Below, one piece after another: positions 26,691 to 58,791 of a DNA stretch of 64,000 nucleotides. Numbering within the stretch: the first letter of the stretch is position 1; every line of letters starts with the position of its first letter. This stretch comes from Sorghum bicolor (Eukaryota; Streptophyta; Magnoliopsida; Poales; Poaceae), in assembly GCF_000003195.3 (NCBI RefSeq), contig NC_012878.2, forward strand, positions 18,266,641 to 18,330,640. The letters run 5' to 3'. The position numbers were made by a program, and so were the translations under genes. The notes under the pieces were generated by a model. It was not told the DNA's origin and searched no databases. It saw nothing but the letters and a program-made list of their open reading frames with translations.

Positions 26691-26698
26691 AGCATTTT

Positions 26699-31200: not shown

Positions 31201-31902
31201 GCATCTCATTCTCCTCATAAAATTTCAAAAAGCAAGGAAGGTATGTATCCCCTCAAAATAGCAAAAGTAGAATTAGACTTTCACCATTGTTATCACCATC
31301 ATCACCATACACTATTCATTCGCCACACATGCACATCTTGATTTGGCTTATTGATTTGTTTCTTTGGATCCATGGTTTGACTATACAATAAATGTCTTGT
31401 AAGTATGTATATTTTATCTCCCACCTATGAGCTCCAGATATTAAAGCCTTATTAGAGTAGGGTGAGAGAGAAGGCAATGTCACTATGCCTTATACCACAA
31501 ATACCACATATTTTGAGAGAAGGCATATACCATCACTGCCTTGGTAAGGATCTAGAAATACCACAAAAGAGAGATATGAGAGAGTCATACAAAGGAATCT
31601 CTGAGTTTTATTTGAAAATCTACAAAAACTCCAGAGCTATAGCTGATCAAGAATAAGAGACATGGCACTTGACGGGACTGTTCTATCTTTTAACCACTCC
31701 AGACAGAAGTAACGGTTACAAGTCCCATGGTGAAAGGTAAAGTAAGTAAGTTTTAAGTCTTGACAGTTTACTCTAACTCAGAGATGAGACCTCATTTAAA
31801 AGCATATGTACCGTCAATTTTTAAATATATTGCAACAACTTATGATCCATAGCTGAGTTTATCCTTGCTCAGGGACGAGCAAGAGGTAAGCTTGGGGGAG
31901 TT
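28214..31902 (+). other. Long non-coding 3' region of element D with three purine tracts
   Basis: No pol motif in any frame over 3.7 kb. The tract AGCTTGGGGGAG occurs three times: 28542-28553 (330 bp after the gag stop), 30206-30217 and 31889-31900, the last being the true PPT beside the 3' LTR. A purine-rich run lies at about 31021-31200. The text around the first two copies looks like former 3' ends, as if segments had been added between an ancestral PPT and the LTR. Confidence 0.65.
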
Positions 31903-33243
31903 TGTTGATGGTCCTTAAGTATCAAATTTAACTATCAAATAAACAAAGAAAAGGATCCAAATGAAATCAACATCTAGACTTAGGGTTTTATCTGACAGAA
32001 TTCCACGAGTTTTGGTGTTTGTCTATTTCTGCAGGGGGTTATCAGGAAATAAGGAAGAAAGGCCCACACGTCGGGATTACATAGAGATATCAACGTGCCG
32101 CGCAATTATCTTACATCTAGAAGACTCCAGAAGCCACGAGACCGAAGCGGAGGCGAAACGGGGCCAGAGACAGGGCGCCCGCCCTGTCCTACTGGGCGCC
32201 CGCCCATCTCCTGTGGCCAATCACGCTCAATCTCGCTGATTATGCTCCACCGACCTAAAGGATCAAGAATAGCCGTTCAATCAATGTCGGTTTGATCCGA
32301 CGGCCCAGGTTCACTTGAGGGGACTATAAAACCAGACCCCCTGGCCCCTGGAGGAGGCACCCCTTGATCATTATTCATTATTCATAGACAGAGCAAAAGC
32401 TAGGGTTTAGAGATGAGAGCTCTCCTCTCTTCTCTAAACTAGAGTAGATCTAGATAGTAGCGAGATGGAGAGCGAAGGAGGATTAGAGGAGAGGCTGGCC
32501 TGTCGGTTCTTCCTCCGGTTGTACTTCGCCATGATCAAGCTCTAATCAAGCTTGCTCATGGGATGACTCTGCTAATCTACTTCTAATTCATTATGCAATT
32601 ACTAATCATGTATGTTCTGGTTCACAACTCTTTTGAGTACTTCTAATCTATAGGACCCTATAGGTTAGAGTTGTAGTATAGGTGTAAGCGTGGTGCTTAG
32701 ACCTAGATTACTTGTGGATATCCCCTGACTAGCTGGATCGTGTGGTAGGCCGCGTAGGAGACAGTTACGTTGGTCCCCTGTAGTCCACCTCTCGTTAGCA
32801 GGACGGGTAGGGTTTATCGGCCTATGGATAAGCATCCTTTGTGGTGTACTCTTATCACATGGTTCGTCCCAGACATAGACATACCCCTTTGAAGTAGAGA
32901 AACCATAGTTATCCTCTCTATTCTGCTACCATCGTCCATATACTAGAATTGCTCTACTCTCTATTCCCATATTATCACTCACTGTTATCTTACCTTTAAT
33001 ATTGTTCTTATTCGATTCTACCATCTTTCCTATTCACACCTATTTACTTATCTTGGTTAATTTTGAGCGTAGATCAGTTCTCCCGTTTCCCTGTGGATAC
33101 GATAAAACCTTTAACCGGGTAAAAGCTTCAACGGTATCCGTGCGCTTGCGGATTATCTGTGTGCGTATAAATACCATAGTACACTCTAGTGCCACGCTGG
33201 GGATGACAACCTAGTATTCAAGTGGTGTTAGCAAGTGTCAACA
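31903..33243 (+). repeat. 3' LTR of element D
   Basis: Same length as the 5' LTR (1341 bp) with about 18 substitutions and no indel. It is preceded by the tract AAGCTTGGGGGAGTT and followed by E's pol sequence (GGTTCTGCGGGTTGGGG). Confidence 0.95.
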
Positions 33244-34251
33244 TGGTTCTGCGGGTTGGGGTGGCACCAGGACCGGGGCAGAGGTCAGTGTTTTCTTCAA
33301 ATTATCGAGGGCTTCCTCGGCTTCGGGGGTCCAAGAGAAACGCTCGGCTTTTTTCAAGAGCCGATACTGTGGCAATGCCTTTTCTCCCAACCTCGAGATA
33401 AAACGACTCAGTGCCACCAAACATCCTGTGACCTTTTGCACTCCCTTGACGTCTCGGATCGGCCCCATTCTTGTGATTGCCAAGACTTTCTCGGGGTTGG
33501 CCTCGATGCCGCGTTGGGAGACTATGTATCCTAGGAGCATGCCTCGGGGGACACCAAACACGCACTTCTCGGGATTGAGCTTGATCTTGTTTGCGCGTAA
33601 GCAACTGAAAGCGATCTCGAGGTCCTGAATCAGGTCTCCCTGTTGCTTTGACTTGACGATGATGTCGTCGACGTAGGCCTCGATCGTCGACCCTATTTGT
33701 TTACCAAACACATGGAGCATGCAGCGCTGGTATGTGGCTCCCGCGTTTCGAAGCCTGAACGGCATGGTTACATAGCAATACATTCCAAAAGGCATGATGA
33801 AAGATGTCGTGAGCTGGTCGGACTCTTTCATTTTTATTTGATGGTAACCAGAATATGCATCAAGGAAAGAAAGGGTTTCACATCCCGCAGTAGAATCAAC
33901 AATTTGATCGATACGTGGTAATGGAAAAGGAACTTTCGGACATGCTTTATTTAAACTCGTATAATCGACACACATCCTCATTTTCCCATTCTTTTTCTTA
34001 ACTAGTACAGGATTTGCTAACCAGTCGGGATGGTGAACCTCCTTGATGAATCCAGCCGTCAAAAGCTTGTGGATTTCCTCGCCAATGATCTTGCATTTCT
34101 CTTCGTCGAAGCGTCGCAGCCGCTGCTTCACTGGCTTGCAACCGGCTCGAAATTCCAAGGAGTGCTCGGCGACTTCCCTCGGTATGCCTGGCATGTCCGA
34201 AGGACTCCATGCAAACATGTCAGCGTTTGCACGGAGAAAGTCGACGAGCAC
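33244..34251 (-). CDS. Reverse transcriptase and start of RNase H of element E
   Basis: Uninterrupted RT: DMFAWSPSDMPGIPREVAEH, VLVKKKNGKMRMCVDYTSLN, FLDAYSGYHQIKMKESDQ, FGMYCYVTMPF, the catalytic box AYVDDIIVKSK, then VFGVPRGMLLGYIVSQRGIE and FSWTPEAEEALDNLKK. It ends at PPQPAEP, where D cuts into the first RNase H domain. The frame is opened by a shared TAG (34258-34260) seven bases upstream; translation would need readthrough or a start at the GTG. Confidence 0.93.
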
Positions 34252-34257
34252 GACTTC

Positions 34258-35016
34258 CTATTTGGGGTCGAGGTCGGCACTGATCGTCAGCACCTTGCCA
34301 TCGGAATTGTCGGCATCGAGCGGGATCTTCTTTGTCCCTTTTGCCAGTTCGAAGCTGCTCGCGTGACGTTTGGGCTCTGGGGCTTCTGCAGCCAGGGCCT
34401 CGAGCTTTGAGGCGAGCTCGGTGGGGTTCTCGACAGCTTCCCCATACTCGACGCATTCGATGTCGCACTCGTACATGTGCTTGTAGGAAGAGCTGACGGT
34501 GATGACCCCCTTTGGCCCGGGCATCTTTAGCTTCAGGTAGGAGTAGTTGGGGATAGCCATGATTTTGGCGTCACCCGGGCGTCTGATGATGGCGTGGTAC
34601 GTGCCTCGGAATCCCACCACCTCAAAGGTGAGGGTCTCCTTTCTGAAATTGGCCGCCGTGCCAAAGCAGACCGGTACATCGATTTGACCTACCGATAACG
34701 CCTTCTTCCCAGGTACGACGCCATGGAAGCCACCGGCCCTTGGTTGGAGCTGCGCCCTGTTGATGCCAAGGAGGTCGAGGGTCTCGAGGTAGATGATGTT
34801 TAGGCTGCTGCCGCCGTCCATCAACACCTTTGTGAGCCAGGTGTTGACGATGATGGGGTCGACGACGAGCAGGTAGACGCCAGGGGCGACTACCTTGTCG
34901 GGATGGTCGTCTCGATCGAAGGTGATGGGGGTGCTCGACCAGCTGAGGTACTGGGGCACTGCCATCCTTGCCGCAAAGACTTCACGGCGTTCCCTCTTGC
35001 GTTGCCTTGCGGTCAG
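34258..35016 (-). CDS. Protease region of element E
   Basis: The frame holds the retropepsin domain: VLMDGGSSLNIIYLETLDLL (active-site DGG where element F has DSG), CFGTAANFRKETLTFEVVGF, the flap/end region YHAIIRRPGDAKIMAIPNYS and a long linker to RT (EYGEAVENPTELASKLEALA). It matures Gag-Pol. It ends with AAATAGGAAG, an in-frame TAG that element F shares at 61955-61957. Confidence 0.85.
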   Translation of the reverse strand: MTARQRKRERREVFAARMAVPQYLSWSSTPITFDRDDHPDKVVAPGVYLLVVDPIIVNTWLTKVLMDGGSSLNIIYLETLDLLGINRAQLQPRAGGFHGVVPGKKALSVGQIDVPVCFGTAANFRKETLTFEVVGFRGTYHAIIRRPGDAKIMAIPNYSYLKLKMPGPKGVITVSSSYKHMYECDIECVEYGEAVENPTELASKLEALAAEAPEPKRHASSFELAKGTKKIPLDADNSDGKVLTISADLDPK

Positions 35017-35622
35017 CTACATCGAGGGACCACCGTAGATCATGTAGCAGTCGTGGACGGCAGGGAAACCGTCGTCGTCTTTGCCGCCCCCCTTGTCGCC
35101 GCTCTTTTCTTTCTTTGGGTCGTCACACGCATCCTTCTTGAACCCCAGGCCATTGAAGTGCTTTTTCAGCATACGGCAGTCCTCGAGCATGTGGTTTGCC
35201 CCTCCCTTATGGTAAGGGCAGGGCTCCTTTAGCATCTTGTCGAAGATGGCCCCCACTGGGGGTCCTCAAGGCCTTTTGCACTTCATGGCAGCGACGAGAT
35301 CGTCGTCGAGGTCCTCCCACTAGAACGGTTGTGTTTTCTTCTTCTTTTTGTTCTTCTTGGGTCCTCGACTGGGGCCCTCATCATCATCGGCGGATGGCTT
35401 GCCTTTCCTTCCTTCACAGTTGAAGAAGGCGCCGACCGCTTCTTCCCCTACAGCGTAGTTTGCCACTACGTCCATCAGCTCGTCGACGGTCTGAGGGCGA
35501 TTCCGGCCTAATTCCCACACCAAGTCATGACTGGTGGTTCCAGAGACAAAGGCTAGGATGACGTCGTGGTCGGGGATGTGTGGCAGCTCGGTGTGCTGCT
35601 TCGAGAAGCGTCGAGCATACTC
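35017..35622 (-). CDS. Gag C-terminus with zinc-knuckle-like motif of element E
   Basis: In frame with gag upstream. It includes EYARRFSKQHTELPHIPDHD, DVVANYAVGEEAVGAFF, a basic tract (GPKKNKKKKKTQPF) and a Cys/His motif CPYHKGGANHMLEDC of Tat Gags. Stops at 35623 (TGA), 35320 (TAG), near 35266 (TGA) and 35017 (TAG) interrupt it. Element F has CGA, CAG, CGA and CAG at these positions, so all four are explained by C-to-T changes. Confidence 0.82.
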
Positions 35623-37416
35623 TCAGAGGGTTTCTCCCAACTTCTGCTTGCATTTGCTGAGGTCCCACGAGTTGTCGGGTCGTATGTAGGTTCCTTTGAA
35701 GTTACCCTCGAACACCCTGACCAAATCGACCCAATCGTAGATCTGGTTGGCCGGGAGCTCCTCGAGCCATCTGCGGGCAGTGTCGGAGAGGAAGAGTGGC
35801 AGCTGTCTGATGATGGCTTGATCATCCCCTCGAGCGCCTCGTAGCTGATAGGCTAGCCTGAAATCTGCCAGCCACAGCTCTGGCTTGGTCTCGCCGTTGT
35901 ATTTTGCAATGCTGGTCGGGGGTCGGAACAGGCTGGGCAGCGGCGTGCTGTGGATTGCCCTGCTGAACACCCGCGGGCCCGGTGGTTCTGGGGCTATCCG
36001 GTCCTCATCGCTGTCGTATCTCCCACCGCGGTGGGCACTGTAACAACGCTCTTCTGCGTCCCCGTAGAGACGGCGACGATTCTCGTCAATGTCGCGTCGT
36101 GCGTCGTGTCGTTGTTGGTTGTCGATGGGGACGACGAGCGTGGTCTTTTCCCCTCGAGGGGGCGGCTGCTGATGGACCGACACCTCCTTTTCGTCGTGGG
36201 CTGGCTCATCACGCTTTTCTGTGGCCGCTCCTCGACGTCGAGAGGCCGAGCTCTCGGCCTGCTGAACTGCCGCCACCTGGAGCAGAGTCTGCACCTCGTC
36301 TCGGATGTGCCGTGCTTGAGAATTCGAGGGCTCGGGCATGTTACGCAACAGCATCGTTGCTGCCACAACGTTCTGTCCTGCTCGAGGGAAGCGGCTAACA
36401 GGTTGTTCTGGTTCCCCATCCCCGACGATCTGTCGACGTACCTCTCGAACCCTTCTGCGGACACTTCCGCCAGGCGGGTATGGCAGGTCCTGCTCAAGGA
36501 TTTGCTCGAGCAAGACGAGGCGCTCATGATCTTTGTCAAGTTTCGTCTTGAGCTCCCATAGCTGCGCAAGTTGCGCGGCTCTGTCTTCTTGTGGAGGTGG
36601 GTCGACCTGTTCGTTGTTCCCAGGTGACCTGGGGTCTTCCCTCGCTGCAGGGGCTCGACCGCCTGCAACAGCGTATTGCGTCTCGTCGGTAGTTTCTACT
36701 GCCCCATCGATATGGAAGCACTCCCTAGTAGGGTCGCAGCTGTCGGACTCAGAGCCGGAGTCCGGCTCGGCAGCGTAGAAGCATCCGCGTCCTTCCTCCA
36801 GCAGCCGCTGCCTGAGGGAGGTAATCGTGTACCGTCCAGGGCCTAGGCGGTGGAGGCCTCGTACCTGCGAGAAGTCTGGCAGCTCGGACGTTTGTGGCCG
36901 TGCTCCATTGTCGCGTGGGAGGACCATTGGTCTTTCCACGTACGTCTGGGCGTTTGGACATATCGTCCTGGCGAGCGATGCTGCGGCGTTGTCCAGCCCG
37001 AATGGCAGCGCTCTTCTCCTGGCGAACAACCCGTGTGGAAGTAGCGTAGCGGTGGGGAAGAGCGCGCGGGGCGCGTCACCTCCTGTCGTCGTGTGATCCT
37101 CGTGGCGTCGAGCCGTCATACCCACGGTTTTGGCGCACGGGGCTGTCGGCTCCTGTGCCACCTCCTACCTGGCACGAACTGTTGGTCGTGTCGAGGCAGA
37201 AGGGCGATGGTGGTGCTGTCCACGCCTCTTCTTGGGTGGGGAGGCGTGATGGAGAGGACGTCTCGGGGCCCTCAACTGTGTTGGCGCAACGCGGGCTCCT
37301 CCCGGTCCTTTGATCGAGAGCAGGATCATGTCATAGCCGGAGCCAGTAGACATGAACTCGAGACTCCCAAACCAAATCACCGTGGAGCGCGGGATCGGCG
37401 AAGTGAGAGTGGCCAT
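35623..37416 (-). CDS. Gag of element E
   Basis: The ATG at 37416 (MATLTSPIPRSTVIWFGSLE) lies 36 bp inside the PBS. One TAG at 37165-37167 interrupts the frame. The central part is charged and helical (LAQLWELKTKLDKDHERLVL); the capsid domain lies at the end: IAKYNGETKPELWLADFRLA, RQLPLFLSDTARRWLEELPA and YDWVDLVRVFEGNFKGTY. It forms the particle. F carries the same gene with different lesions. Confidence 0.88.
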
Positions 37417-37452
37417 CTGGAAAGGAATGGGAAATCGGTGAAAAACACGTAG

Positions 37453-37473
37453 TACCCCTACCTGGCACGCCAA
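37453..37473 (-). other. Primer-binding site of element E
   Basis: The minus strand reads TTGGCGTGCCAGGTAGGGG next to the 5' LTR end. F has the same site with GCGCC (58735-58752). The sequence is typical of RIRE2-like Tat elements; I do not name the tRNA. Confidence 0.75.
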
Positions 37474-37474
37474 C

Positions 37475-38461
37475 TATCGGTGTTTTCCCCCCGGGGGGTC
37501 ACACCAACGAGTAAAACATGTATGCGTGCTCCCTTTTCTAGATGGTGATGCAAAAAGACACAAAGATTTATCCTGGCTCGGGCAAGAGGAAGCCCTACGT
37601 CCAGTGGGGGGGAGTGTTTGTATTATTCTGCACCTAAGTGCTTGTACAGGGGTGAATACAACTGTGGTATGGAAGGAGATGGAGTGAGTTTGCTCTACTA
37701 CGTATGGCTTATGTGTTGCGTTGTATCGCCTCTCCCTGTATCCGCTCCTAGGCCTCCCCTTTTATAGTTCCATGGAGAGACCTGGGGTACATGTATAGGC
37801 GTCAGAGTAGGGGTCGATAGAGGTATGGCGCGCTGACCTACTCGAGGCGTCCGTACCGGCGTGGTTTCAAGGCATCTGTTGTATCTTTGTACGTCGCGGC
37901 AGCATCTGTGTCAGAGTGGTTGAGGTGCTGTCACTCATCGCCCAACTCTTCTCCAGGAAGGAAATGTTCCTGCTCGAGGGTCTGGTGCCGCATAATGACT
38001 TGCTAGCCAGAGCGCTGACCTTAGGCGTCTCGAGGGGGGTCTTGATTAGACATTCCGAGCCACTCCCTGTGTCTTGCCACGTTCTGGCTTGTTTGGTGGG
38101 GAAGGCTGCAAAAAGAATGACGGGATGGGTGCCTGCTCCCTATCACGCTTCCCGTGACTGGTGAGTTAGGTGAGAACGCGACAGGCGCATTAAATGCCCT
38201 GGTTCCCGTGCCCGCGTCAGGCGGCAGACGACATCCTTGCGCTCGACGCCTTCTGATTCGCTCGAGCCTATTTCCGTGTTCGACGGTAGCCCGTGCTCGA
38301 GCCCTGATCGATTCACAGGACGCTCGTTCCGTGTTCGAGACTATGGCCGTCGAGGACCGTACGTATGACTGGGTAGAGCATCGTGTTGGAGGCCTCGACT
38401 TGCGTACGAGTATTCTCGTCATGCACATCAGTTAGGGTACCCCTTACTGATATCCTCGACA
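37475..38461 (-). repeat. 5' LTR of element E
   Basis: 987 bp, with the same ends as 18355-19418 except that the terminal TGTTGG is TATCGG here. It carries TATAAAA on the minus strand (37760-37766), a perfect C6G6 palindrome near 37485 and an internal deletion of about 76 bp near 37870. Confidence 0.9.
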
Positions 38462-38466
38462 AGAGT

Positions 38467-39270: not shown

Positions 39271-39275
39271 GAGTG

Positions 39276-39963
39276 TGTTGACACCATTTTTGGGCACGTG
39301 TCTAGGATGGCATGATAGGGTGGCAGTACGATGCGGGTTGCTGATGAGGATGGTTGCCGATGAGGGAGAGGTTGAATATGACTAAGTCCACAGGCAGTAA
39401 TATGGTGCCGATGGCTGGATAAAAAGGTCTGCCGATGACTATGGCAAGGGGATTGCCGATGATGCGAAGGAGGAGTCCGGAAGCTGCCGGTTGTCATGTG
39501 GAGGAGTTTCGGTTTGTCACGAAGGTTAGTTTTATTATTTCCTTAGTTATTTGCATCGTTTTGTATACGGATTCCGTGTAATTTGGAATTCGAATTCTAA
39601 TCGTGTCTGGTTGTAGCTCTTTGAGCAGGGTATAAATATAAACCCTAGGACCTTGTGATAATCAATCAAGAAATCAATCAAACACACGTTTTTACTCATA
39701 TTCCAGCATCTACTTTTCGACAACTTCGTCATACTTTTTTCTTTTTATTACGAGTTCTTAGGAATTCGTCGACTTAAGCTCGGCGTGTTCTCGAGTTCCG
39801 CGTGAGTACCTCTTAGCCGTGACATCCGGGCGCATCGCTGCTGTCAGGACTAAAGTATTCGAGTTATCACCTTTGCCGATAGCAAGGTCAAATCGGCTGG
39901 CACGCCTTAACGTTTGAATCGGGTATTAGCCCTTTGTGTTTGCAGATCAGTTTTGCATCAACA
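39276..39963 (+). repeat. 5' LTR of element H
   Basis: From TGTTGACACC to GCATCAACA. TATA box TATAAATATA at 39631-39640. Contains six GCCGAT/ATCGGC sites, four of them clustered at 39356-39460. Confidence 0.95.
39631..39640 (+). promoter_or_regulatory. TATA box in H's LTR (also at 51259-51268)
   Basis: TATAAATATA preceded by GAGCAGGG, sense orientation, 324 bp before the LTR end; the likely core promoter for the H genomic RNA. Confidence 0.65.
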
Positions 39964-39970
39964 CATCTTT

Positions 39971-39988
39971 TGGCACGCCCAGTGGGAC
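39971..39988 (+). other. Primer-binding site of element H
   Basis: TGGCACGCCCAGTGGGAC starts 7 bp after the LTR. The TGG start fits a tRNA CCA end; the tRNA is not identified. Confidence 0.7.
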
Positions 39989-40009
39989 CGATTCAAGATC
40001 AAGATCAAC

Positions 40010-43000
40010 ATGTCGATCTCTGACCTCGATCAAGAGAACGTCATCCCCGTGACGGAGGCCAACCTCAAGGATGAGCAAAAGCAAGCTATTGCCCAAGCCA
40101 TGGAAGAGTTCCAGCAGCAATGCCTGAGGTCTTTCAGCATAAACAGGAGCGGCGAAGTAGTCCAGAAAGATGCACTGCCGGCACCACGGCAGGTCACCTT
40201 TGACGCCAATCCTGGCAAGCTTCAAGATATGGTTGACAATGCCATCAATCGAGCGTTGATTAACCAAGCTGGTGTACTATCTAATACGGTTTTCAACGCC
40301 GTGGCAAGAACTTTCAAGGAAGGACAAATCCCGCCGGATTATGTGGGGCCCTCCCATCATCAGCCAACGGCACCAGAGGTCACGGCTCCATCGGCTGCCT
40401 TGACGAATGCAAGTGCACAGTCTGCCGTCCCTCCAAGTACATTGGGGACTACTGGTGCACTATCTATGCCGATGGCAACCAACCCACAAATTTCAGTTGG
40501 GCAGCATAAACTGACAACAGATATGTTGGCATCGGCAATGTCAGGGTTAACTCTTCCTCCCAACTGGTGGGGTTATGGTATGCCTCCAGAGTTGACGCCG
40601 GGAACATCACAAATAACTGACATGAGGGGCAAAACTCCTATGACATCGGCACCTCCCAATGCGCCGGTGAACCAGAGTCCTCGGTATACCACAACTACTA
40701 CTGCAAGGCCTCACACTGGGAATCCTCAAGATTCAATGTTTCAGATGCCCAACGCATCGGCAGAGTCAATGCTGATGCAACAGAGGCCTATGGCCCAGTC
40801 GGGGTATGTCAATTCAACGACGGTACCCAATTACCAATCATCGGCAGCACCTATGCCGATGAACGCTAATAATGGATGGCTTGGACAGCAAGCCTTTCCA
40901 CAATCGCCCGAGCAGGGTTATCAGACTACAGGGTTCCAGCAAGGGCAGGTCTATCCCGGGTTCCAAGGTCAGGGGATTCCCAACCAGCCAATAAATTTTG
41001 GACAGCAACTCGGAGGACAGCCAATCAGTGGACAGCAGTTTGGTAGTCCGCAGATTGGAGGACAGGTGACCAATACAATGTTCCATGCAGGTCACGTCCC
41101 GAACAGACACGTGGAGGTTCGCCACCAAGTGCCAGATCCGCAGCCGCCTCATCGGCAAGATGCCGATGCGTATTGGGCCGATAAGATTGCTGAAGTAATG
41201 AGGGAACAATTTGGGATAAAACCCAAAGTCAACACTTATTCTTATCGGACGCCGTATCCTCCAGCGTATGATTTGATCCCGCTTCCACATCGGTACAAGG
41301 TACCGGATTTTACAAAGTTTTCCGGACAGGACGACACGTCAACCATGGAGCATGTCAACAGGTTCATTATTCAATGTGGAGAGGCTGGTAACAGGGACGA
41401 ATTGAGGGTTCGTCTATTTTCATCATCATTGTCTGGATCGGCCTTTACTTGGTTCATATCATTACCTCCCAACTCAGTAATTACTTGGGCCGATCTAGAG
41501 AAGCAATTCCACAAATACTTCTTCTCGAGGGTTCATGAGAAGAAGATCACCGACTTGGTCAAGTTGAGGCAACGTAATGATGAGTCGGTTGAGGGATTTG
41601 TGCAGAGGATACGAGAGGTCAAGAATAAATGCTATAGCCTGGTTCTGGATGATCGGCAGCTAGCCGATTTGGCGTTCCAGGGTTTGTTGCCACATATCAG
41701 GGATAAGTATGCCTCTCAGGAGTTCGAAAGTTTAAGTCATTTAGTGCAGAGGATATCTGATCAAGACATCAAGCCTTTCGAGCCTAAGAGGGCATGGAAT
41801 AAGAAAGTGTCATTTGTTGATGAAGCAACAAGCTCAGATTCCGATGAGGAACCAGTAATCGGTTTGGCAGAGTGGGTAAAAAACAAGAAGCCGATGTCTT
41901 GTCCTTTTGGGCAGAAGGAACCAGAGAAGTTTACCTTTGACACCGCCAAGGCCGATAGGATATTTGACTTTCTACTTCAGGAAGGTCAAATCAAACTGTC
42001 ACCTAACCATGTGATCCCATCGGCAGAAGAGTTGAAGAGGATGAGATATTGCAAGTGGCATAATGCAACTTCACATGACACCAACGAGTGCAAAGTATTT
42101 AGACAGCAGCTGCAATCGGCTATAGAGTCCGGGAGAATCAAGTTTGACAGTTCCAAAGCCCAGAAGCCGATGAAGATAGACCAACATCCTTTCCCGACAA
42201 ACATGTTGGATGCTAAGGGGAAGGCTAAGGTCTTAACGTCGGAGACAGCTGAGAAGAGTGCATCGGTAGATCCTCAGCATCAAGTTACTACTGCTGATGC
42301 AAGAAGTAAGGGCTTGGTCCAGGAAGGAACTAGCTCAGGAAGGCTTCCTCGATCTGGCATCGTCATAACTCATAGGAGGCCTCGAGAAAAATGGTGTCAA
42401 CGGGAAGATCGGTATCGACACCAGCAGGAAGATTATCAACGGGAAGAAGAAAGACGCCGACAGGAGTGGAATCGGCACAGGGATCATTGGAATTGCCCAT
42501 TCTTCATCCATTGTTGGGAGGAAAATATCAAGCTTCCTACTGTCAGAGACTGCCCTGAATGCAACGGTTATGATCGGTACGATAGGAACGATCGGCGTTA
42601 TCATGATGACGAACGGCGAGCTAATGGGCCGATCAGAGGAAGGGTGTCAGTTCATGACCGGCTGGGGGGCAGATTTAGTGGGCACCATAGACTTAGTGAC
42701 CGTGTCCAGTATTTTCCCAGGAACCAAGAGGAGCTCAAAGGAATGGCTGATGCGCGGGTTCCCGATGAATTCATATTTTGCAGGGATGCTAACACGCATC
42801 GCATGGAGTCAAGAGAGAACCGACACCCGACGGCAAGGCAAAGGCCACTTCCTCCATGGTGTCCTCGAGGATTAACCAAGACTCAGAAAAGGAGATTGCA
42901 ACGAGAAAGGCAAGAGGAGCTAAACAAGGGAGAGAAATCTGGAAGTCGGCAGCCGTCAGACACTAAGAGGGAAGGTCCATCGGCAGGCGTCAACATGGTC

Positions 43001-43657
43001 TTCATGTTGCCGATGGAGTTTCTTGCACCAGCCAGTGACGATGAGTTGGAATTTTCTGATCAGATAGCTCAGTTGGCTCTGGATCCGATGACGGCTATCT
43101 TTGAGAAACCTGCCGATAACGAGAGGCAGCATCTTAAAGCTTTGTTCCTCAAAGGAAGGGTTGATGGGCAGCCAATGACCAAGATCCTAGTTGATGGTGG
43201 AGCTGCTATTAATATTATGCCGTATGCAGTATATCGGAAGCTTGGGAAAGGGGATCAAGATTTGACCAAGACCGATATGATGCTCAAAGACTTTGAAGGA
43301 AACGTGTCTCCAGTCAAGGGGGCGATATGTGCAGAGTTGACCATCGGCAGCAAAACCTTGCCGACAACTTTTTTCGTGATCAGCGGAAAAGGTGCCTACA
43401 ATTTATTATTGGGGAGAGATTGGATTCATGCCAATTGTTGTGTCCCATCTACAATGCATCATTGCTTGGTTCAGTGGGTAGGTGACAAGATTGAGATCGT
43501 CCCAGGAGATTCTTCTTATGTTATCGCATCGGCAGAAGCGGATACTTACGAAAGGACCAGGTGCATTTCAGGAGAAGTTTGGGAGAAAGATTTTCTCAAA
43601 GTTGCCGATTATGAGATTCCACCGATCCAAGCAGTCAGTTCTGACGACGGTTTTTAA
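40010..43657 (+). CDS. Gag-protease polyprotein of element H
   Basis: An open 1215-residue frame. I chose ATG 40010 (MSISDLDQENVIPV), 21 bp after the PBS; the upstream extension lies in LTR and PBS. Residues 1-420 are Pro/Gln/Met-rich; the capsid domain is at about 430-570 (FTKFSGQDDTSTMEHVNRFI, GSAFTWFISLPPNSVITWAD, KLRQRNDESVEGFVQRIREV). A Cys/His motif CKWHNATSHDTNEC is near 685, a basic Arg-rich stretch at 790-850, and retropepsin at about 1060-1165 (LVDGGAAINIMPYAVYRK, LLLGRDWIHANCC). The stop overlaps the pol start (TAATG). Confidence 0.92.
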   Translation: MSISDLDQENVIPVTEANLKDEQKQAIAQAMEEFQQQCLRSFSINRSGEVVQKDALPAPRQVTFDANPGKLQDMVDNAINRALINQAGVLSNTVFNAVARTFKEGQIPPDYVGPSHHQPTAPEVTAPSAALTNASAQSAVPPSTLGTTGALSMPMATNPQISVGQHKLTTDMLASAMSGLTLPPNWWGYGMPPELTPGTSQITDMRGKTPMTSAPPNAPVNQSPRYTTTTTARPHTGNPQDSMFQMPNASAESMLMQQRPMAQSGYVNSTTVPNYQSSAAPMPMNANNGWLGQQAFPQSPEQGYQTTGFQQGQVYPGFQGQGIPNQPINFGQQLGGQPISGQQFGSPQIGGQVTNTMFHAGHVPNRHVEVRHQVPDPQPPHRQDADAYWADKIAEVMREQFGIKPKVNTYSYRTPYPPAYDLIPLPHRYKVPDFTKFSGQDDTSTMEHVNRFIIQCGEAGNRDELRVRLFSSSLSGSAFTWFISLPPNSVITWADLEKQFHKYFFSRVHEKKITDLVKLRQRNDESVEGFVQRIREVKNKCYSLVLDDRQLADLAFQGLLPHIRDKYASQEFESLSHLVQRISDQDIKPFEPKRAWNKKVSFVDEATSSDSDEEPVIGLAEWVKNKKPMSCPFGQKEPEKFTFDTAKADRIFDFLLQEGQIKLSPNHVIPSAEELKRMRYCKWHNATSHDTNECKVFRQQLQSAIESGRIKFDSSKAQKPMKIDQHPFPTNMLDAKGKAKVLTSETAEKSASVDPQHQVTTADARSKGLVQEGTSSGRLPRSGIVITHRRPREKWCQREDRYRHQQEDYQREEERRRQEWNRHRDHWNCPFFIHCWEENIKLPTVRDCPECNGYDRYDRNDRRYHDDERRANGPIRGRVSVHDRLGGRFSGHHRLSDRVQYFPRNQEELKGMADARVPDEFIFCRDANTHRMESRENRHPTARQRPLPPWCPRGLTKTQKRRLQRERQEELNKGEKSGSRQPSDTKREGPSAGVNMVFMLPMEFLAPASDDELEFSDQIAQLALDPMTAIFEKPADNERQHLKALFLKGRVDGQPMTKILVDGGAAINIMPYAVYRKLGKGDQDLTKTDMMLKDFEGNVSPVKGAICAELTIGSKTLPTTFFVISGKGAYNLLLGRDWIHANCCVPSTMHHCLVQWVGDKIEIVPGDSSYVIASAEADTYERTRCISGEVWEKDFLKVADYEIPPIQAVSSDDGF

Positions 43658-45768
43658 TGGATAGATTCGCCGATGATGGAAAATTAGGCCAGGGATTCAC
43701 ATCGGCCGATGATTTGGTAGAAGTAGATATAGGTAGTGGTGATAAGCCTAGACCTACTTTTATTAGTGCTAAATTAGATCCTGAGTGTAAGCGACAATTG
43801 ACTAGTTTGTTAAAGGAATATAAAGATTGCTTTGCTTGGGATTATACAGAGATGCCTGGTTTAGACCGATCAATTGTTGAACATCGGTTACCCATCAAGT
43901 CTGGATTTCGGCCACATCAGCAACCAGCCCGCCGATGTAATCCTAACATTCTACCTGATATTAAGGCCGAAATCACTAAACTTATTGAAGCTAAGTTTAT
44001 TCGGCAGTGTCGGTATGCCGAATGGATTTCCAATGTTGTTCCGGTTTACAAGAAGAACGGGAAGCTTCAGGTGTGCATTGATTTCAGGAATCTCAATAAA
44101 GCTACACCGATGGATGGATACCCAATGCCTGTCGCCGATCTACTGGTTGATGCTGCAGCTGGCCATCGGGTCATCAGCTTCATGGATGGTAATGCAGGTT
44201 ACAATCAAATATTCATGGCAGAGGAGGATATTCCAAAAACCGCATTCAGGTGTCCTGGTCATGTTGGACTATTTGAATGGATAGTCATGACTTTTGGGTT
44301 AAAGAATGTTGGTGCTACTTATCAAAGGGCTATGAATTTTATATTTCATGAGTTCATCGGCAAGATCGTAGAGATTTATATTGATGATGTGGTGGTTAAG
44401 TCTGGAGATTTCTCAAAGCATCTGGCCGATTTACGAAAAGTGTTGGAGTGCACAAGGAAGCATGGATTGAAGATGAATCCCAACAAGTGTGCATTTGGCG
44501 TATCGGCAAGGAAGTTTTTTGGTTTCATGGTACATCAGAGGGGTATTGAAATTAGTCGAAGATCTATTGATGCCATCAATAAAATAGTGGCCCCTACCAA
44601 TAAAACCGAGCTCCAATCCTTGATCGGCAAGGTGAATTTTATCAGAAGATTTATATCGAATTTATCTGGGAGGATTCGTGCCTTCAGTCCTCTTCTTAAA
44701 TTGAAAGCCGATCAAGAGTTTGTTTGGGGAGAAGAACAGCAGTTGGCTCTGGATGAAATCAAGAAGTATCTAATAAATCCTCCAGTTTTAGTTCCACCTC
44801 AACAAGGGAAGCCCTTCAAATTGTATTTATCTACCGATGGATCGGTTATCGGTTCAGCTTTAGTTCAAGAATTTGAAGGGAAAGAGAGGGTAATTTATTA
44901 TTTGAGTAGGAGGTTGATTGATGCTGAAACCAGGTATTCGGCCATTGAGAAACTGTGCTTATGCCTATATTTTTCATGTATCAAGCTGAGACATTACCTG
45001 TTGTCGGCCGAATGTGCTATTGTTTGCAAAGATGACGTGGTCCGATACATGCTATCTATGCCGATTATGAGTGGTAGGATCGGTAAATGGATTTTAGCGC
45101 TGTCGGAGTTCGATTTGCGTTACGAATCGGCTAAGGCAGTCAAAGGGCAGGTTATGGCCGATTTTGTGACTCAGCATTGCGGTCTAGTGGAAACCTTGGA
45201 AATTGCACCCTGGACGCTCTTCTTTGATGGATCTACCTATGACCGGGGGGCAGGAATCGGCATTGTATTAGTTTCTCCTAAGGGGAGGAAGTATGAGTTT
45301 TCCTTGCCGATTGTTGCTACATCAACAAATAATCAGGCTGAGTATCAAGCTCTGATCAAGGGATTGGAGTTGTTAAGAGAAGTTCGTGCTGATGCTGTTG
45401 AAATATTCGGTGATTCTATGTTGTTTATAAATCAATTGGCCGGAAGCTATGAATGCCGAAGTGAAGTTCTCATAACCTATTTCGAGAGAAGTATGCAACT
45501 GTTAAAAGAATTCAAGGACTTCCGATTGGAGCATGTTCCCCGATTGCATAATGAAGACGCTAATCGGTTAGCCCAGCATGCCTCGGGATATCAGCCAATG
45601 ATTAATGCGACATCGGCAGTCAGGGCCGGTGATTGGAGGAAAGAAATTATTGATTATCTAAAAGATCCATCCAAAAAAGTTGAAAGACGGGTTCGATTTC
45701 AGGCAACCAAGTATGTGCTCCTTGAAAATGAATTGTATTATCGAACTGTCGACGGAATTCTTCTCTGA
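43657..45768 (+). CDS. Pol of element H: RT, RNase H and second (archaeal-type) RNase H
   Basis: Starts at an ATG overlapping the gag-pro stop, in a different frame. RT: CFAWDYTEMPGLDRSIVEHR, VPVYKKNGKLQVCIDFRNLN, GNAGYNQIFMAEEDIPKTAF, catalytic box IYIDDVVVKSG. First RNase H-like domain: LYLSTDGSVIGSALVQEFEG to MADFVTQHC. Second RNase H: WTLFFDGSTYDRGAGIGIVL, NNQAEYQALIKGLELL, FGDSMLFINQL and HNEDANRLAQHAS, with Asp, Glu and Asp residues intact. An in-frame TGA at 45766-45768 separates it from integrase. Confidence 0.93.
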   Translation: MDRFADDGKLGQGFTSADDLVEVDIGSGDKPRPTFISAKLDPECKRQLTSLLKEYKDCFAWDYTEMPGLDRSIVEHRLPIKSGFRPHQQPARRCNPNILPDIKAEITKLIEAKFIRQCRYAEWISNVVPVYKKNGKLQVCIDFRNLNKATPMDGYPMPVADLLVDAAAGHRVISFMDGNAGYNQIFMAEEDIPKTAFRCPGHVGLFEWIVMTFGLKNVGATYQRAMNFIFHEFIGKIVEIYIDDVVVKSGDFSKHLADLRKVLECTRKHGLKMNPNKCAFGVSARKFFGFMVHQRGIEISRRSIDAINKIVAPTNKTELQSLIGKVNFIRRFISNLSGRIRAFSPLLKLKADQEFVWGEEQQLALDEIKKYLINPPVLVPPQQGKPFKLYLSTDGSVIGSALVQEFEGKERVIYYLSRRLIDAETRYSAIEKLCLCLYFSCIKLRHYLLSAECAIVCKDDVVRYMLSMPIMSGRIGKWILALSEFDLRYESAKAVKGQVMADFVTQHCGLVETLEIAPWTLFFDGSTYDRGAGIGIVLVSPKGRKYEFSLPIVATSTNNQAEYQALIKGLELLREVRADAVEIFGDSMLFINQLAGSYECRSEVLITYFERSMQLLKEFKDFRLEHVPRLHNEDANRLAQHASGYQPMINATSAVRAGDWRKEIIDYLKDPSKKVERRVRFQATKYVLLENELYYRTVDGILL

Positions 45769-46852
45769 TGCTTGGGTGATGATGAAGCCAGAAGTTTGAT
45801 GGGGGAAATCCATGAAGGATTGTGTGGAGCGCATCAGTCAGCTTTTAAGATGAAGTGGATGATTCGAAGGAATGGATATTTTTGGCCAACCATACTTGAA
45901 GATTGTTTTAGATATTTCAAGGGATGTCAAGGTTGTCAAAAGTTCGGTAATATCCAGAGAGCACCCGCATCGGCTATGAATCCTATAATAAAGCCTTGGC
46001 CGTTCCGGGGATGGGCCATCGATCTGATCGGCCAGATTTATCCACCATCTAGCAAAGGGCATAAGTTCATTCTAGTTGCCACTGACTATTTCACTAAGTG
46101 GGTCGAAGCTATTCCTTTGAAGAAAGTCACATCGGCCAATATGATTGATTTTGTGAAGGAGCATATTATTTACCAATTTGGGATTCCCCAAACGATTACT
46201 ACCGATCAGGGCACCATGTTCACGTCGGGGGAGTTCGATGAATTCGCAATCGGTATGGGAATTAAAGTGTTGAATTCTTCTCCTTACTATGCTCAAGCCA
46301 ATGGGCAGGCCGAAGCGTCTAACAAAGGAATTATCAAGCTTATTAAACGAAAGATTGAAGAAAATCCTAGGCGGTGGCATACATTGTTAAATGAAGCGCT
46401 ATGGTCTTATCGGATGGCTTGTCATGGATCAACCAAGGTGTCACCCTATCAATTGGTGTATGGACATGATGCAGTGTTGCCTTGGGAGATTAAGGCTGGA
46501 TCTAGGCGATTATCTTTTCAAGATCAATTGGCTGCCGATGATTATGCCACTTTGATGACCGATGAGTTAGATGATTTAGCAGGGCATCGGTTAAAGGCTT
46601 TAATGAGTATAGAAGAAAATAAGAAGAGAGTTTGCCGATGGGGATTTAGTATGGAAGCTGATTTTGCCAGTCGGGACTAAAAGTTCGAAGTTTGGGAAGT
46701 GGTCTCCTAATTGGGAAGGTCCTTATCGGATAAGGCACTCGGCTCCTGGTAATGCCTATATTCTAGAAACTCTCGAAGGAGTTGAATTTCCCAGAGCATT
46801 AAATGGCAAATATTTAAAGAAGTACTACCCCAGCATATGGGTCGATGCATAA
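45769..46852 (+). CDS. Integrase of element H (frame continues after TGA; tail deleted and shifted)
   Basis: In frame with RT after the TGA: zinc-binding region HEGLCGAHQSAFKMKW and GCQGCQKFGN; catalytic core AIDLIGQI, TTDQGTMFTSGEFDEFA and NGQAEASNKGIIKLI, then SPYQLVYGHDAVLPWEIKAG. At about 46635 a deletion of roughly a dozen codons changes frame: the C-terminal GPY-type module continues in the next frame (LPVGTKSSKFGKWSPNWEGP, YILETLEGVEFPRALNGKYL) to TAA at 46852. With the stop and the deletion this copy is unlikely to integrate autonomously. Confidence 0.9.
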
Positions 46853-46894
46853 AAGTTTAAGTGCCGATAACACTCCTATCGGCTGGATTTAAAT

Positions 46895-46908
46895 GTTTGG
46901 GGGCAGAC
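46895..46908 (+). other. Internal PPT-like tract after pol of H
   Basis: GTTTGGGGGCAGAC lies 43 bp after the pol stop. It resembles the LTR-adjacent tract GAAACTGGGGGGCATG (50888-50903). The antisense gene occupies the interval between the two. Confidence 0.5.
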
Positions 46909-46997
46909 TTAATGTTTCAAAAGATGCCGATAACAGTCTTATCGGCTAGACTAAAAGCTAAAAGCGGGAAAACAAAGGTGTGTTGCCGATGAAAGCT

Positions 46998-49900
46998 TCA
47001 AATGTTCAGCAGCGCTTGGATTGCCGATATGGTGCGCAGCCGGATCTGATTGGCTGTCTCTATCTCTTTGATATCATCTTCGGCAGAACCTTCTATCGGC
47101 TTCAGCTTCCTCTTCAGCTGCAGCGCTTTGCGACCGTGGACGTTTCGTTCTTGTTCAAGGTGCTTGATGGTCTCCGGCAGTTGACTCTCTTCTTGCTGGG
47201 CTTGGGACAGAGCATCCTCTACTTGCTTGAGTTCGGCCAGTAGAGCTTCTCTTTTTGCCGACAGATCAGATACTTTCTGCTTCAGTGCATCACCTGAGGA
47301 CTTTAAGGTGCCGATGTTCTTATGTTTCTCATCGGCTAAGAGTTTTTCTTTCATCATCTCCTCAGAAAGCTGAATTTGAGCGGCTCTATCGGCAAGGCGT
47401 CGAGTGGCTCTCTGGTACTGTAGCTGGCGGCTTTCTAGGTGTGCAGCATGGAAGAGGGTTTCTTCAGCATCGGCAGGAATTTGGCCTCTAAGGGTTTTGA
47501 ACAGGGCCTTGGCTGGGTCAGAATCGTTGACCAGTTGAGCTGTGTCTTGATGAAGTATGGCCGATAGCTCCTCCAGCTTAGCCCTGGTTTCTGCCGATAC
47601 AGTCCCAATTGCCCGAGAGGAGCTTGCTTCCTCACCTTCTTCTTCGAAGATATCAATGGCGAAGGAGAATAAGCTATCGGGAGAATCTTGTTCCTGAAAA
47701 TGAGAATGAAATAAGTCATTTTTATGGTCAAAGCTTCGGCAGACGATGCTGGTGGAAAAATTGGATGACTTACTTGTTTCAAGGCAATTTCTTGCCTTTG
47801 ACTCAAAGATACCGATGGAGCTACAGGTTGATCGGCAAATGTTGTCGATGGAACGATATCGCCTGAAAGAAGACAGGAAGGGTTATGAGACTAAATGAGA
47901 ATAAGTTTATCGGCGGAAGTATTGTTGAGATATGTTACCCGGAGGAGGAACAACAGTTGTCTGAATCGGGGAAACCGCCGATGATATAACTGGACCTGCC
48001 GGGCCAGTTGTTTGTTCACCCACGTCAGCTGATGTACCTTCTGTTTGAAGTTCTTCCTGCTGGGGTTCTTCCATCTGTGGTGCTTCCTGCATTGGTTGGG
48101 GAGATGGTGCTTGCTGTTTCTGGACTTCTGGAGAAGAGGGGGAAGATTCCACCAGGATTGGAGACACCGGAGGAGGAGGGGGAGTTGCCACTTTCTGGCG
48201 CTTTGTTCCATCCTTAGCACCTTGGGTGCCCTTCCTCTTTGGCTGGCTAGACTGGGGGGCATCGGTACCTTGGCGTTTGGCTTTTGCCGATGCACCAGTT
48301 TGCTGCAACAACAAAAAGGAGTTTATGAGCACAGATAGCCGATACAAAGATAGTCAGCATAAATGAAAAGGGGTTTCACAAATTGCCTTGAAAGCTTGCG
48401 CCAGAGTGGAAGCAGTTACCGTTGGCGATGTCTGAGTTTTCCTGGTGGTAACTTTCTTGAGGCACGCACCCCGATGCATGATGGAAGCCAGAGTGGGAGC
48501 ATTGTGGCCGATTGAGGAGATCGGGCCTGAGGGGAACAAGTCGATCGGCTTGCCACTCCTGCTAACCGATGGGGGGGTGTTGTCAACCTGCAAAAGGAAT
48601 AGGAGGGTAAGTTACCGATGGAAATAGTATTGGAAAATGAGACATCGGTTTAAAATACTTACAGTGTCATCAGGGACTTCGTATTCAGGGTCGATCATGC
48701 CGCGGTATGAGAGGGCCGATCTGCAGAATAGATTCTCTTTCCATTCTGCCCACCATAGCTTGTATGCCTGAGTGATAAAGGCAGCTGGAACCCATTCTGA
48801 CAGATCTACATCTGTATCGGCATTTGGTGGTAGCTAGGCTACTCGAGTCCACTCGAGAAGGTTGGTGATGGGTTCTCTGGGCTTTATCACATCGGCATAA
48901 GGAAGTGCAATCGGCAACTGGCCGAAAGCTAGCTGGCGAGCTAATGCCGATGGATTGTAAAATTCATAGGTTTGGGGAGAGGTTTTCGTGCTACCGAAGA
49001 AATTCACTAGTATGGCTCTGGGAGTCACAATTGCCATCATCACCTCATTATCCCTGTCAAGAGCTTCATCAAATGGATTGAAGGTTAGAGGGAGCATGCT
49101 GTCTGGGTCATCATAGGCCAACCATGGTCGTTCATCTCTGGCCAATCCCTCATACAGAGTCTCGAAGAATCGGCCGATCTGATCCGGATTGTTCCCTGAA
49201 CCGGGTAAGACTATAACGGCTTCGCCAAAGTTCAAGGGGGCACGCGTTGCCGATTCCTCTTCACCCAACACATGATTTTCGGCTATATCTCTTGGGAAGT
49301 GCTGTGAGAACAAGTTGAAATCAAGGCGCTTATGCAGGTGCAGATTGAGCCACATATTAATAAACCACCAGGGGCCTCCCAAGTTACCGATGGATTGGCC
49401 AAGCAAGAGTTTCTGGGCTACCTGATGAAGAAGGTGGTAAACAGCGCTGAGCAAATATCGGCCGAGAGGAAATTGGCCACCGCTAGCCAGTCTTTCTGCT
49501 GCCGATAAATAGACAGAAGTCGGTCCTGCCGATCGACCACAGAATACAAACTTGTCCAGCCACATGTTCAGAAAGGTGGTTTGCTCCTTTATGGTGACAG
49601 GCCCTCTCCAGCGGTACTTCTGGATGTACCCTGACCAACCGCCGATAGCGCGAGTCTCCACTTTGGCACTGGGGGCAGTATCAAAAAAGTGGGTGCTATC
49701 GGCAGAAGATACATCTAGCCCAGTGAGCATGGCTACATCGGCAAGGGTAGGAGAAGCAGGGCCGTGGCCAAAAACAAAAGCATTGAGGGTATTTGACCAA
49801 AAATAAGACGCAGCTATCAACAGCGACTCGTTCTTGTGCATATCGGCAATGGATAGCCTGATACATTGGGCTAGCTTCCTTTCACCCCACTGGACTTCAT

Positions 49901-50264
49901 TCGAATTACTGACTCTCAAGAACCAGTCTTTCCACCCTACAGTAGGGCTGGGCCAAGAGCGAAAGGTGTCTTTCCACAGATCTAAAGAAAAGTTTTCGGC
50001 TCTAAAGGGAATCCTGTTGGTTTCTGCATTAATAAGGTCGGTTGGATCTGGATTCCCTAGAGGGCCGAGGCACTGATGGTGTGGTTGATCGGTAGGGATG
50101 ACAATTTTGTTGGACAACTCCTAGTGTTTTGGGGAATAAAAATACAAAGAAAAAGGAAAAGGAAGATATTCAGTAAGATGAATCGCAGATGAACAGAAAT
50201 GCGAGAAAAGGTACAGGAGATGAGATGGAAGTCTGACCTCAGGGACGACGAAGCCAATGGCCAT
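46998..50264 (-). CDS. Antisense spliced gene of element H: plant-mobile-domain-like protein with coiled coil
   Basis: Model (minus): 50264-50238, 50120-48663, 48587-48387, 48302-47939, 47862-47774 and 47693-46998; 945 codons, phases agreeing at every junction, introns of 75-117 bp. Most donors/acceptors are canonical (GTAAGT, TTTTGCAG, CTTTCAG); intron 3 is GC-AG and the first donor (GTCAGA) is weak. Exon 2 resembles the plant mobile domain (aminotransferase-like) family: FRSWPSPTVGWKDWFLRVSN, LADVAMLTGLDVSS, NLGGPWWFINMWLNLHLHKR. Exon 4 is basic and Pro-rich (QPKRKGTQGAKDGTKRQKVA, nuclear-signal-like). Exon 6 is a coiled coil (KREALLAELKQVEDALSQAQ). One TAG at 48834-48836 breaks the frame. 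PMD proteins are plant nuclear factors; the role here is unknown. Confidence 0.78.
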
Positions 50265-50414
50265 CTTGTCGTGAAGAGGACGTTGGAGGGCACCGGAGTT
50301 GATGAAGAGGAATGCTTGTCGGAGATCTTGAGGGTTGTAAATGGCGCCGCTGCTAGAAAAGCAAAGTTGGATAGTAGAATGGTGTAATGGGGGAGGAGTA
50401 CCCAAGAAGGAACT

Positions 50415-50421
50415 ATTTATA
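50415..50421 (-). promoter_or_regulatory. TATA box of H's antisense gene
   Basis: The minus strand reads CCTATAAATAGTTCC, a canonical plant TATA box about 150 bp upstream of the proposed ATG at 50264. Expected start is near 50388, so the in-frame ATG at 50405 would lie outside the transcript. It lies in the ~480 bp between the gene and the 3' LTR (50422-50903), which holds several GCCGAT/ATCGGC sites (50600-50720) and no other gene. Confidence 0.6.
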
Positions 50422-50887
50422 GGACAAGATGGGCAAGGGCAAGTCCGACTTATCTCTTTGCCGCATCCGAGAAGCCCGAGGGTACTCAGGTGGATATGGT
50501 AACTGGTCGCACGGTAATCCAGGGATTGTGCAGGTGATTTGACGGGAAGCGGTCATTATCTAAAGATATTTTACTGTGCGAGATCTCCTGGTCGGTCCAT
50601 CGGCGATATTCTATAACGGTCATCTTGCCGATGGGCGGATAGAGGAGAGGTAACCGTTTTTGCGAGTATCCTGGTCAGAGCATCGGCAGATCTTTGTAAC
50701 GGTATTGTTGCCGATGTACGACCAAGAAAGATGCCCGTTTAGGAAGTTGGGGATTTCGAGGAATCTGCGGAGGATTAGGATCAGAGTTGTCCAGATTGAG
50801 GTTGTTGGTTACCAGATTAGGAGCATTAATTGTGGAGAAGGCATCATTACTGCACAGAATTTCGGAGCATTAATAGTTTTATACTCC

Positions 50888-50903
50888 GAAACTGGGGGGC
50901 ATG
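50888..50903 (+). other. Polypurine tract of element H
   Basis: GAAACTGGGGGGCATG immediately precedes the 3' LTR start TGTTGACACC. Confidence 0.8.
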
Positions 50904-51591
50904 TGTTGACACCATTTTTGGGCACGTGTCTAGGATGGCATGATAGGGTGGCAGTACGATGCGGGTTGCTGATGAGGATGGTTGCCGATGAGGGAGAGGT
51001 TGAATATGACTAAGTCCACAGGCAGTAATATGGTGCCGATGGCTGGATAAAAAGGTCTGCCGATGACTATGGCAAGGGGATTGCCGATGATGCGAAGGAG
51101 GAGTCCGGAAACTGCCGGTTGTCATGTGGAGGAGTTTCGGTTTGTCACGAAGGATAGTTTTATTATTTCCTTAGTTATTTGCATCGTTTTGTATACGGAT
51201 TCCGTGTAATTTGGAATTCGAATTCTAATCGTGTCTGGTTGTAGCTCTTTGAGCAGGGTATAAATATAAACCCTAGGACCTTGTGATAATCAATCAAGAA
51301 ATCAATCAAACACACGTTTTTACTCATATTCCAGCATCTACTTTTCGACAACTTCGTCATACTTTTTTCTTTTTATTACGAGTTCTTAGGAATTCGTCGA
51401 CTTAAGCTCGGCGTGTTCTCGAGTTCCGCGTGAGTACCTCTTAGCCGTGACATCCGGGCGCATCGCTGCTGTCAGGACTAAAGTATTCGAGTTATCACCT
51501 TTACCGATAGCAAGGTCAAATCGGGTGGCACGCCTTAACGTTTGAATCGGGTATTAGCCCTTTGTGTTTGCAGATCAGTTTTGCATCAACA
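50904..51591 (+). repeat. 3' LTR of element H
   Basis: 688 bp, same length as the 5' LTR with about four substitutions; followed by the target duplicate GAGTG. Confidence 0.95.
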
Positions 51592-51596
51592 GAGTG

Positions 51597-57179: not shown

Positions 57180-57667
57180 AATGCCATCAGGAATGATCCG
57201 CAAGCGCACGTATATCGGTGAGCACTTCACCCGTGAGGTTATCCAGAGTATCGTATTTATATTTTTACAACTGGGAGAAAGCGTGCATCTGACTAACCAA
57301 ATCTATTGCTACTACCCTTTAGGCTAAAAAGAATGTTTCTCGATGTGAGCGATGTATAGAGAAAACTACAACCGTAGTCTCCTTCTAACCTTGGTAAGGA
57401 TGATCTACTGTTCTATTGGGGATGCTTATGGAATCTAGACACCACAAAGGATGTTCGACCCGCACCTATAAACCCTACTTGTCTTGCTAACGAGATGTGG
57501 GATGCAAAGGTAACTCGGAAATGTCACATTCCTCGCTACTACCACGGTCCAGCTAGTCAGGGGGTATCTTTGAGTACCCTAGCCCAAGCACCACGTTTAC
57601 GCTAGCAAATGATTACTCTAAACTCAACCGGAAGAGATTAACGTAAACTCATAATCCAAAGAACAAT
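57180..57667 (-). mobile_element. LTR fragment G, truncating the CACTA transposase
   Basis: Its reverse complement has the R/U5-like text of grass gypsy LTRs: CGTAAACGTGGTGCTTGGGC, CCCCTGACTAGCTGGACC, GTAGGGTTTATAGGTGCGG, CATCCTTTGTGGTGT and CACCGATATACGTGCGCTTG. It shares the order with D's LTR and with the fragment at 11059-11405. It ends at 57667, where element F begins; F probably inserted in G, whose remainder would lie beyond the window. Confidence 0.65.
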
Positions 57668-58732: not shown

Positions 58733-58734
58733 GT

Positions 58735-58752
58735 TGGCGCGCCAGGTAGGGG
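58735..58752 (+). other. Primer-binding site of element F
   Basis: TGGCGCGCCAGGTAGGGG, 2-3 bases after the LTR; matches E's PBS with one change. Confidence 0.78.
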
Positions 58753-58791
58753 TCCTGCGTGTTTTTTCACCGATTTCCCATTCCTTTCTAG

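Follow-up and report, generated by a model that had tools for sequence, protein, structure and literature searches.

A dispersed GCCGAT word under selection in a sorghum Tat retrotransposon, and an antisense plant mobile domain protein as its candidate reader

In a 64,000-nucleotide stretch of Sorghum bicolor DNA (contig NC_012878.2, positions 18,266,641 to 18,330,640; hereafter the window) lies a Ty3/gypsy long terminal repeat (LTR) retrotransposon, element H, in which the hexamer GCCGAT (ATCGGC on the opposite strand) is dispersed from end to end. H carries gag-protease, reverse transcriptase-RNase H (RT-RH) and integrase (INT) frames and, in antisense between pol and the 3′ LTR, a further open reading frame (ORF) matching the plant mobile domain (PMD; PF10536, 63.8 bits against a cut-off of 34.9; Table 1). 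An additional RNase H domain (PF13456) follows PF17917 and precedes PF17921/PF00665, the order described for Tat/Ogre-type elements (PMC6317226), and the position and orientation of the PMD ORF is an Ogre-type feature; judged by the PMD and by a pair of RNase H domains followed by integrase, features taken from that paper, H belongs in the Tat clade and is most like Ogre. Its LTRs are 99.42% identical, with four differences in all (39483, 39526, 39875 and 39897, with their 3′ LTR partners), two of them inside GCCGAT sites. The window copy may not be intact, given a PMD frame of 428 codons against 502 in most other copies among those listed. The alignments of most other copies break at about 46624-46632 (7349-7357 in H coordinates), so that an insertion or deletion close to the integrase frame's end seems to set the window copy apart from them. 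Read by eye, the antisense gene continues through short introns into a last exon that looks like a coiled coil.

The word occurs 98 times in H (53 GCCGAT, 45 ATCGGC) where dinucleotide content predicts 5.3 (z 40), close to the roughly 100 copies against about six expected that had been counted by hand in the original prediction. The enrichment persisted against the dinucleotide-matched controls proposed there: 300 shuffles of H gave a mean of 5.3 and a maximum of 11 sites, and among all 6-mers of the shuffles z reached 5.9 at most. Frequent extension of the hexamer was likewise borne out, the best extended form on either strand, TGCCGATG, being found 35 times against 0.4 expected; among one-letter variants ACCGAT alone was strongly raised (28 versus 4.7), with GCCGAA at 2.7-fold. 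Sites fall on both strands, in several reading frames and, as had been claimed, in all regions, at 5.1-10.2 per kb everywhere except the 46-bp leader, which has none. Two earlier statements stood only in part: six sites per LTR is correct for the 5′ LTR but the 3′ LTR has four, and beyond the borders of H the sites drop sharply but do not vanish, 12 remaining in the other 51.7 kb of the window (0.23 per kb). Control stretches containing two other LTR elements had a top 6-mer z below 8, simple repeats included. Spacing is as for random placement (mean 121, standard deviation 126, about one site per 120 bp), 64% of 147-bp windows in H contain a site, and neither helical phasing nor regular spacing was found among the H sites. 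Tandem repeats were rejected as their source, since the only two tandem arrays in H are short and neither is made of GCCGAT.

One alternative is that the word acts in RNA, for example in packaging, splicing, modification or export, and it does sit in presumably transcribed DNA, sense or antisense. An RNA signal would favour one orientation, however, and the two are nearly equal not only overall but also within gag-pro (13/15), RT-RH (9/7) and INT (2/3), which makes this explanation very unlikely. Composition, codon use or mutational bias, or a chance spread in one ancestor followed by neutral decay, would produce sites without any function, and codons do contribute to the enrichment, synonymous shuffles already yielding about one to six sites per frame. 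In 1000 synonymous-codon shuffles per frame, and in a second version that also held the next base, the observed counts were nevertheless out of reach for gag-pro (28 sites; shuffle mean 5.8, maximum 13; next base held, 8.3 and 15), RT-RH (16; 3.6, 10; 5.4, 11) and the PMD ORF (13; 2.6, 7; 4.0, 9). The INT frame, with five sites, did not exceed its shuffle maxima (0.9, 5; 2.0, 6) and is by itself not decisive. The assertion that codon use cannot explain the sites thus holds for three frames, whose counts are unexplained by synonymous shuffling, and not for INT alone; LTRs and spacers are enriched too.

Older relatives of H bear on neutral decay directly. Ten loci of 4.4 kb, all of the H family, 86-91% identical and taken from the 68 matches of query P0106, hold 35-42 sites apiece and retained the motif at 303 of 359 sites (0.84), against 2430 of 4921 (0.49) for 302 control words with one CpG, so that the loss at a neutral rate for which the original prediction had proposed to look was not found. 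The 56 losses and 80 gains went mostly via single changes, above all ACCGAT, indicating that sites come and go by substitution. Differences were scarcer inside sites than outside at third codon positions of the PMD frame (7/250 versus 648/4020; p 5e-11, nominal because the comparisons share history), at its fourfold positions (5/160 versus 343/1870) and fourfold CpG (2/100 versus 67/180), in the 3′ LTR (5/228 versus 748/6023), in the upstream region (9/240 versus 1056/7606) and in exon/intron DNA (37/900 versus 1595/15632); H served as reference in these counts, which favours sites somewhat, and the gap looks too large for that bias alone. Among 21 young copies (H included; 85 sites, with the same 60% rule for control words), private variants were near the control level (61 versus 71.6; 10% of resamples as low), whereas shared variants were depleted (16 versus 40.6 ± 6.1; 0 of 5000 resamples as low), suggesting that new mutations do occur in sites but that the copies carrying them leave fewer descendants. 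One result weighs against this reading: counted per word, GCCGAT lies outside the 12 lowest of 95 words for shared variants. What these comparisons measure is selection on DNA that maintains the word, in coding DNA as well, and with the shuffles (98 sites against a maximum of 11), the retention, the conserved fourfold bases and the control elements they exclude composition, codon use and neutral decay as its origin for practical purposes.

The word is a property of the family. In 20 further genomic copies, sampled as 10-kb stretches from 98 scored PMD matches, H-like DNA without exception held 7.9-9.0 sites per kb, whereas the flanks held seven in 19.5 kb, and GCCGAT was the top 6-mer in all 30 loci, young and older. 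H-like DNA adjoins three H copies and one copy of a second family (L020, L025, L014 and L040), indicating that part of the copies lie within or beside older ones; at L040, the second-family locus, all seven GCCGAT copies sit in an H-like LTR fragment of about 0.8 kb that is 81-84% identical to H. Searches with pol in viral contigs, and with the PMD in viral and genome contigs, yielded no DNA of other species.

That second family, also assigned to Tat by its additional RNase H, has another antisense frame and another word, CTCGA/TCGAG (with GTCGA weaker), an association the original prediction had proposed to look for. The word is spread along the element, with strands again balanced (81/74 in the longer window copy, 35/35 in the copy that ends at the window edge), and it was the top 5-mer in all three further copies at 2.7-3.5 times expectation; its z of 10.6-14.2 compares with 6.2 and 4.8 for the top 5-mers in stretches of two other LTR elements. 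Nine coding pieces together hold 88 sites against 43.9 ± 6.1 in synonymous shuffles (maximum 67 of 1000), although each piece taken singly stays at or below the maximum of its own shuffles and the word is absent from a 612-base RT piece. Retention between the two copies was 0.71 against 0.46 for 102 pooled control words, with the caveats that two control words with at least eight sites exceed CTCGA and that the LTR was counted in two alignments. In the 75 matches scored, no copy of the antisense frame is more than 87% identical to that in the window and most contain stops, so that decay is a likely reason for a signal weaker than that of H. Transposase_28 (PF04195) was not matched in the scanned pieces of this old and broken copy, and precomputed Pfam domains were absent from the 43 listed relatives of its antisense frame.

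Table 1. Features of the window discussed in the text (positions are those of the window; sites are GCCGAT/ATCGGC unless another word is given; for words, observed versus expected)
Feature	Position	Strand	Remarks
Element H	39276..51591	+	Ty3/gypsy (Tat clade, by its domains) LTR retrotransposon; LTR pair, TG...CA ends, 5-bp target duplication
Target site duplication GAGTG, left	39271..39275	.	Read from sequence
Target site duplication GAGTG, right	51592..51596	.	Read from sequence
5′ LTR of H	39276..39963	+	688 bp; 6 sites
gag-protease frame	40010..43657	+	PF03732, PF13975; 28 sites
RT-RNase H-additional RNase H frame	43657..45768	+	PF00078, PF17919/PF17917, PF13456; 16 sites
Integrase frame	45772..46680	+	PF17921, PF00665; 5 sites
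Stretch between pol and PMD frame	46681..48833	.	22 sites, 10.2 per kb
Further exons/introns of antisense gene	46998..48833	-	Charged/proline-rich linker and last exon 47693-46998, coiled-coil-looking; by eye
Antisense PMD frame	48834..50117	-	PF10536; 13 sites; VANC21-like predicted fold; candidate reader of the word
Upstream region of antisense gene	50118..50903	.	4 sites
3′ LTR of H	50904..51591	+	688 bp; 4 sites
Second family (Tat, by additional RNase H)	18359..38462	-	Split by nested element; LTR pairs, integrase and RNase H domains, RT-like frame; CTCGA/TCGAG 155 vs 39.7
Antisense frame of second family	20696..22435	+	Rich in coiled coil; no Pfam match above cut-off
Second copy of second family, inverted	57667..64000	+	Ends at window edge; RT domain; CTCGA 70 vs 21.0
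Control LTR element	25347..33243	+	LTRs 98.7% identical, gag frame only; without comparable dispersed word
Control Ty3/gypsy element	1388..11058	-	Without comparable dispersed word

If a host DNA-binding protein read the word, the element would have gathered its sites to bring in an activator or chromatin factor of the host, and the antisense gene would be a bystander. GCCGAT resembles the dehydration-responsive element (DRE)-type AP2 sites RCCGAC, and ACCGAC is mildly raised in H (7 versus 2.9, 2.4-fold). GCCGAC (5 versus 3.2) shows little excess and GCCGCC (2 versus 3.6) none, however, so that DRE and GCC-box were rejected as the actual word; GCCGAT is seldom seen in flanks or in other elements, and a shared host reader gives no reason to expect another word in a family with another antisense gene. 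We regard a host reader as improbable.

The product of the antisense gene is the better candidate, as originally proposed. The predicted fold of its PMD matches VANC21 with DNA (PDB 9lnj) over 300-311 residues, and the model thereby places the DNA-binding fold of VANC in H. The likeness is one of fold: neither phmmer nor either of two profile searches against PDB chains retrieved the 9lnj chain, and Foldseek alone on a first PMD model gave no useful match. Together with selection on the sites, this argues for a PMD that binds the word, and we consider it probable, if well short of certain, that GCCGAT is the recognition word of H's own antisense PMD protein and that binding lifts silencing in the manner of VANC. 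H and its antisense PMD may in this way form a self-recognition system. The antisense gene, as annotated, would make the PMD protein, which would read GCCGAT on double-stranded DNA with the part that is folded like the DNA-binding part of VANC21. Because the measured sites recur family-wide about once per 120 bp, or roughly once per nucleosome, and seldom elsewhere, the protein could find and mark its family's copies almost exclusively. By analogy with VANC on VANDAL transposons, it would then remove silencing or keep it off, and the family would be transcribed and spread. Sites would arise and vanish by single substitutions, with selection during propagation holding them at 8-9 per kb, coding DNA included.

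The same protein could read the word to another end, such as self-limitation through silencing or copy-number control, chromatin compaction, or the steering of integration or nuclear import, and everything that supports the PMD as reader supports these outcomes too. The depletion of inherited site-breaking variants indicates that loss of sites hurts propagation and is easier to reconcile with a benefit to the element than with self-limitation, and the only close solved fold found is that of an anti-silencing protein; we therefore think another outcome unlikely.

The closest known system is that of VANC21 and VANC6 in the Arabidopsis VANDAL transposons, which are Mutator-like (PMC5735166, PMC10398659; PDB 9lnj). 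As described there, an element-encoded protein is paired with a short family-specific motif repeated within the element, and related families have different motifs; in the H family, likewise, a short motif is enriched across the family's copies, alongside the predicted fold. H differs in being a grass LTR retrotransposon, with gag, protease, RT, RNase H, integrase and LTRs, rather than a Mutator-like element (MULE), in having a PMD without detectable sequence similarity to the 9lnj chain, and in its layout: VANDAL motifs are described in non-coding tandem repeats, whereas H sites are scattered over LTRs, coding and non-coding DNA. A second comparison is with the Gypsy-encoded PMD-A and the host proteins MAIN and MAIL1 (PMC5418596, PMC7156037, PMC9899485), which share PF10536, Gypsy-borne in the former; genes dependent on MAIN/MAIL1 share a promoter motif, but this DOWN motif (CATGCAGTTT in one promoter) is unlike GCCGAT. 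As far as these papers are accessible, they leave the function of the domain and the chromatin contact of MAIN/MAIL1 open.

Gypsy elements with antisense or additional PMD genes were already known (PMC5418596, PMC6317226, PMC9289625), PMD being reported for 57% of Ogre elements and Transposase_28 for 23% of Retand elements (PMC6317226). The additional antisense ORFs of Tat elements, such as gene23 of Grande and those of RIRE2 and Retand, differ from that of H in that the available text of PMC7264820 and PMC6317226 gives them no established function and reports no dispersed word; the function of PMD is described as unknown, and Tat antisense genes are left without a settled role (PMC8616336, PMC7264820, in the portions available). 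A counter-silencing role has been guessed before, for MULEs (PMC5418596) and for transposable elements (PMC8616336), and PMD and VANC have been named together, without a structural link in the text available. A literature search, mostly without subscription journals, returned no report of a dispersed word or of anti-silencing in plant LTR elements, none of a VANC fold of PMD, and no paper behind 9lnj.

PMD genes also occur beyond the H family. Among the matches listed, a genome scan with PF10536 gave long single matches resembling host genes and several multi-copy sets, two of which were sampled by one 4-kb piece each (L042 and L043). L043 has Mutator-type transposase and SWIM domains beside its PMD; the corresponding frame of L042 resembles that of L043 by eye and has no Pfam match. 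GCCGAT occurs there zero times and once, respectively. In L042, positions 158-349 form an array of ~20-bp units starting TGAAAAGCCTA, with eight of ten TGAAAAG words at 159-349, a layout that recalls the tandem arrays of VANC targets in VANDAL elements and that we take as a lead only. In L043, a tandem repeat at 248-328 makes GGAGTAC the top 7-mer, and CCTGCA is spread along the piece (14 sites).

A PMD predicted to fold like VANC21, carried by an element full of a word under selection, offers a concrete and testable role for the PMD and for the antisense genes of Tat elements. More tentatively, and with less confidence than we place in the case of H, the PMD as a whole could be a VANC-type DNA-reading domain: flowering-plant Tat elements would use antisense readers and a private element-wide word, extending into coding DNA and differing by family, as an address by which silencing is lifted from their own family alone, and the host MAIN/MAIL proteins would be domesticated or sister readers turned to gene control and silencing. 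If the PMD does bind the word of its element, sequence-specific self-recognition would not be peculiar to Arabidopsis MULEs but would extend to a widespread group of plant retrotransposons, simply counting words could give away each family's address in any genome, selection on DNA words would override synonymous freedom along 12 kb, and a DNA-binding role would be suggested for MAIN/MAIL1.

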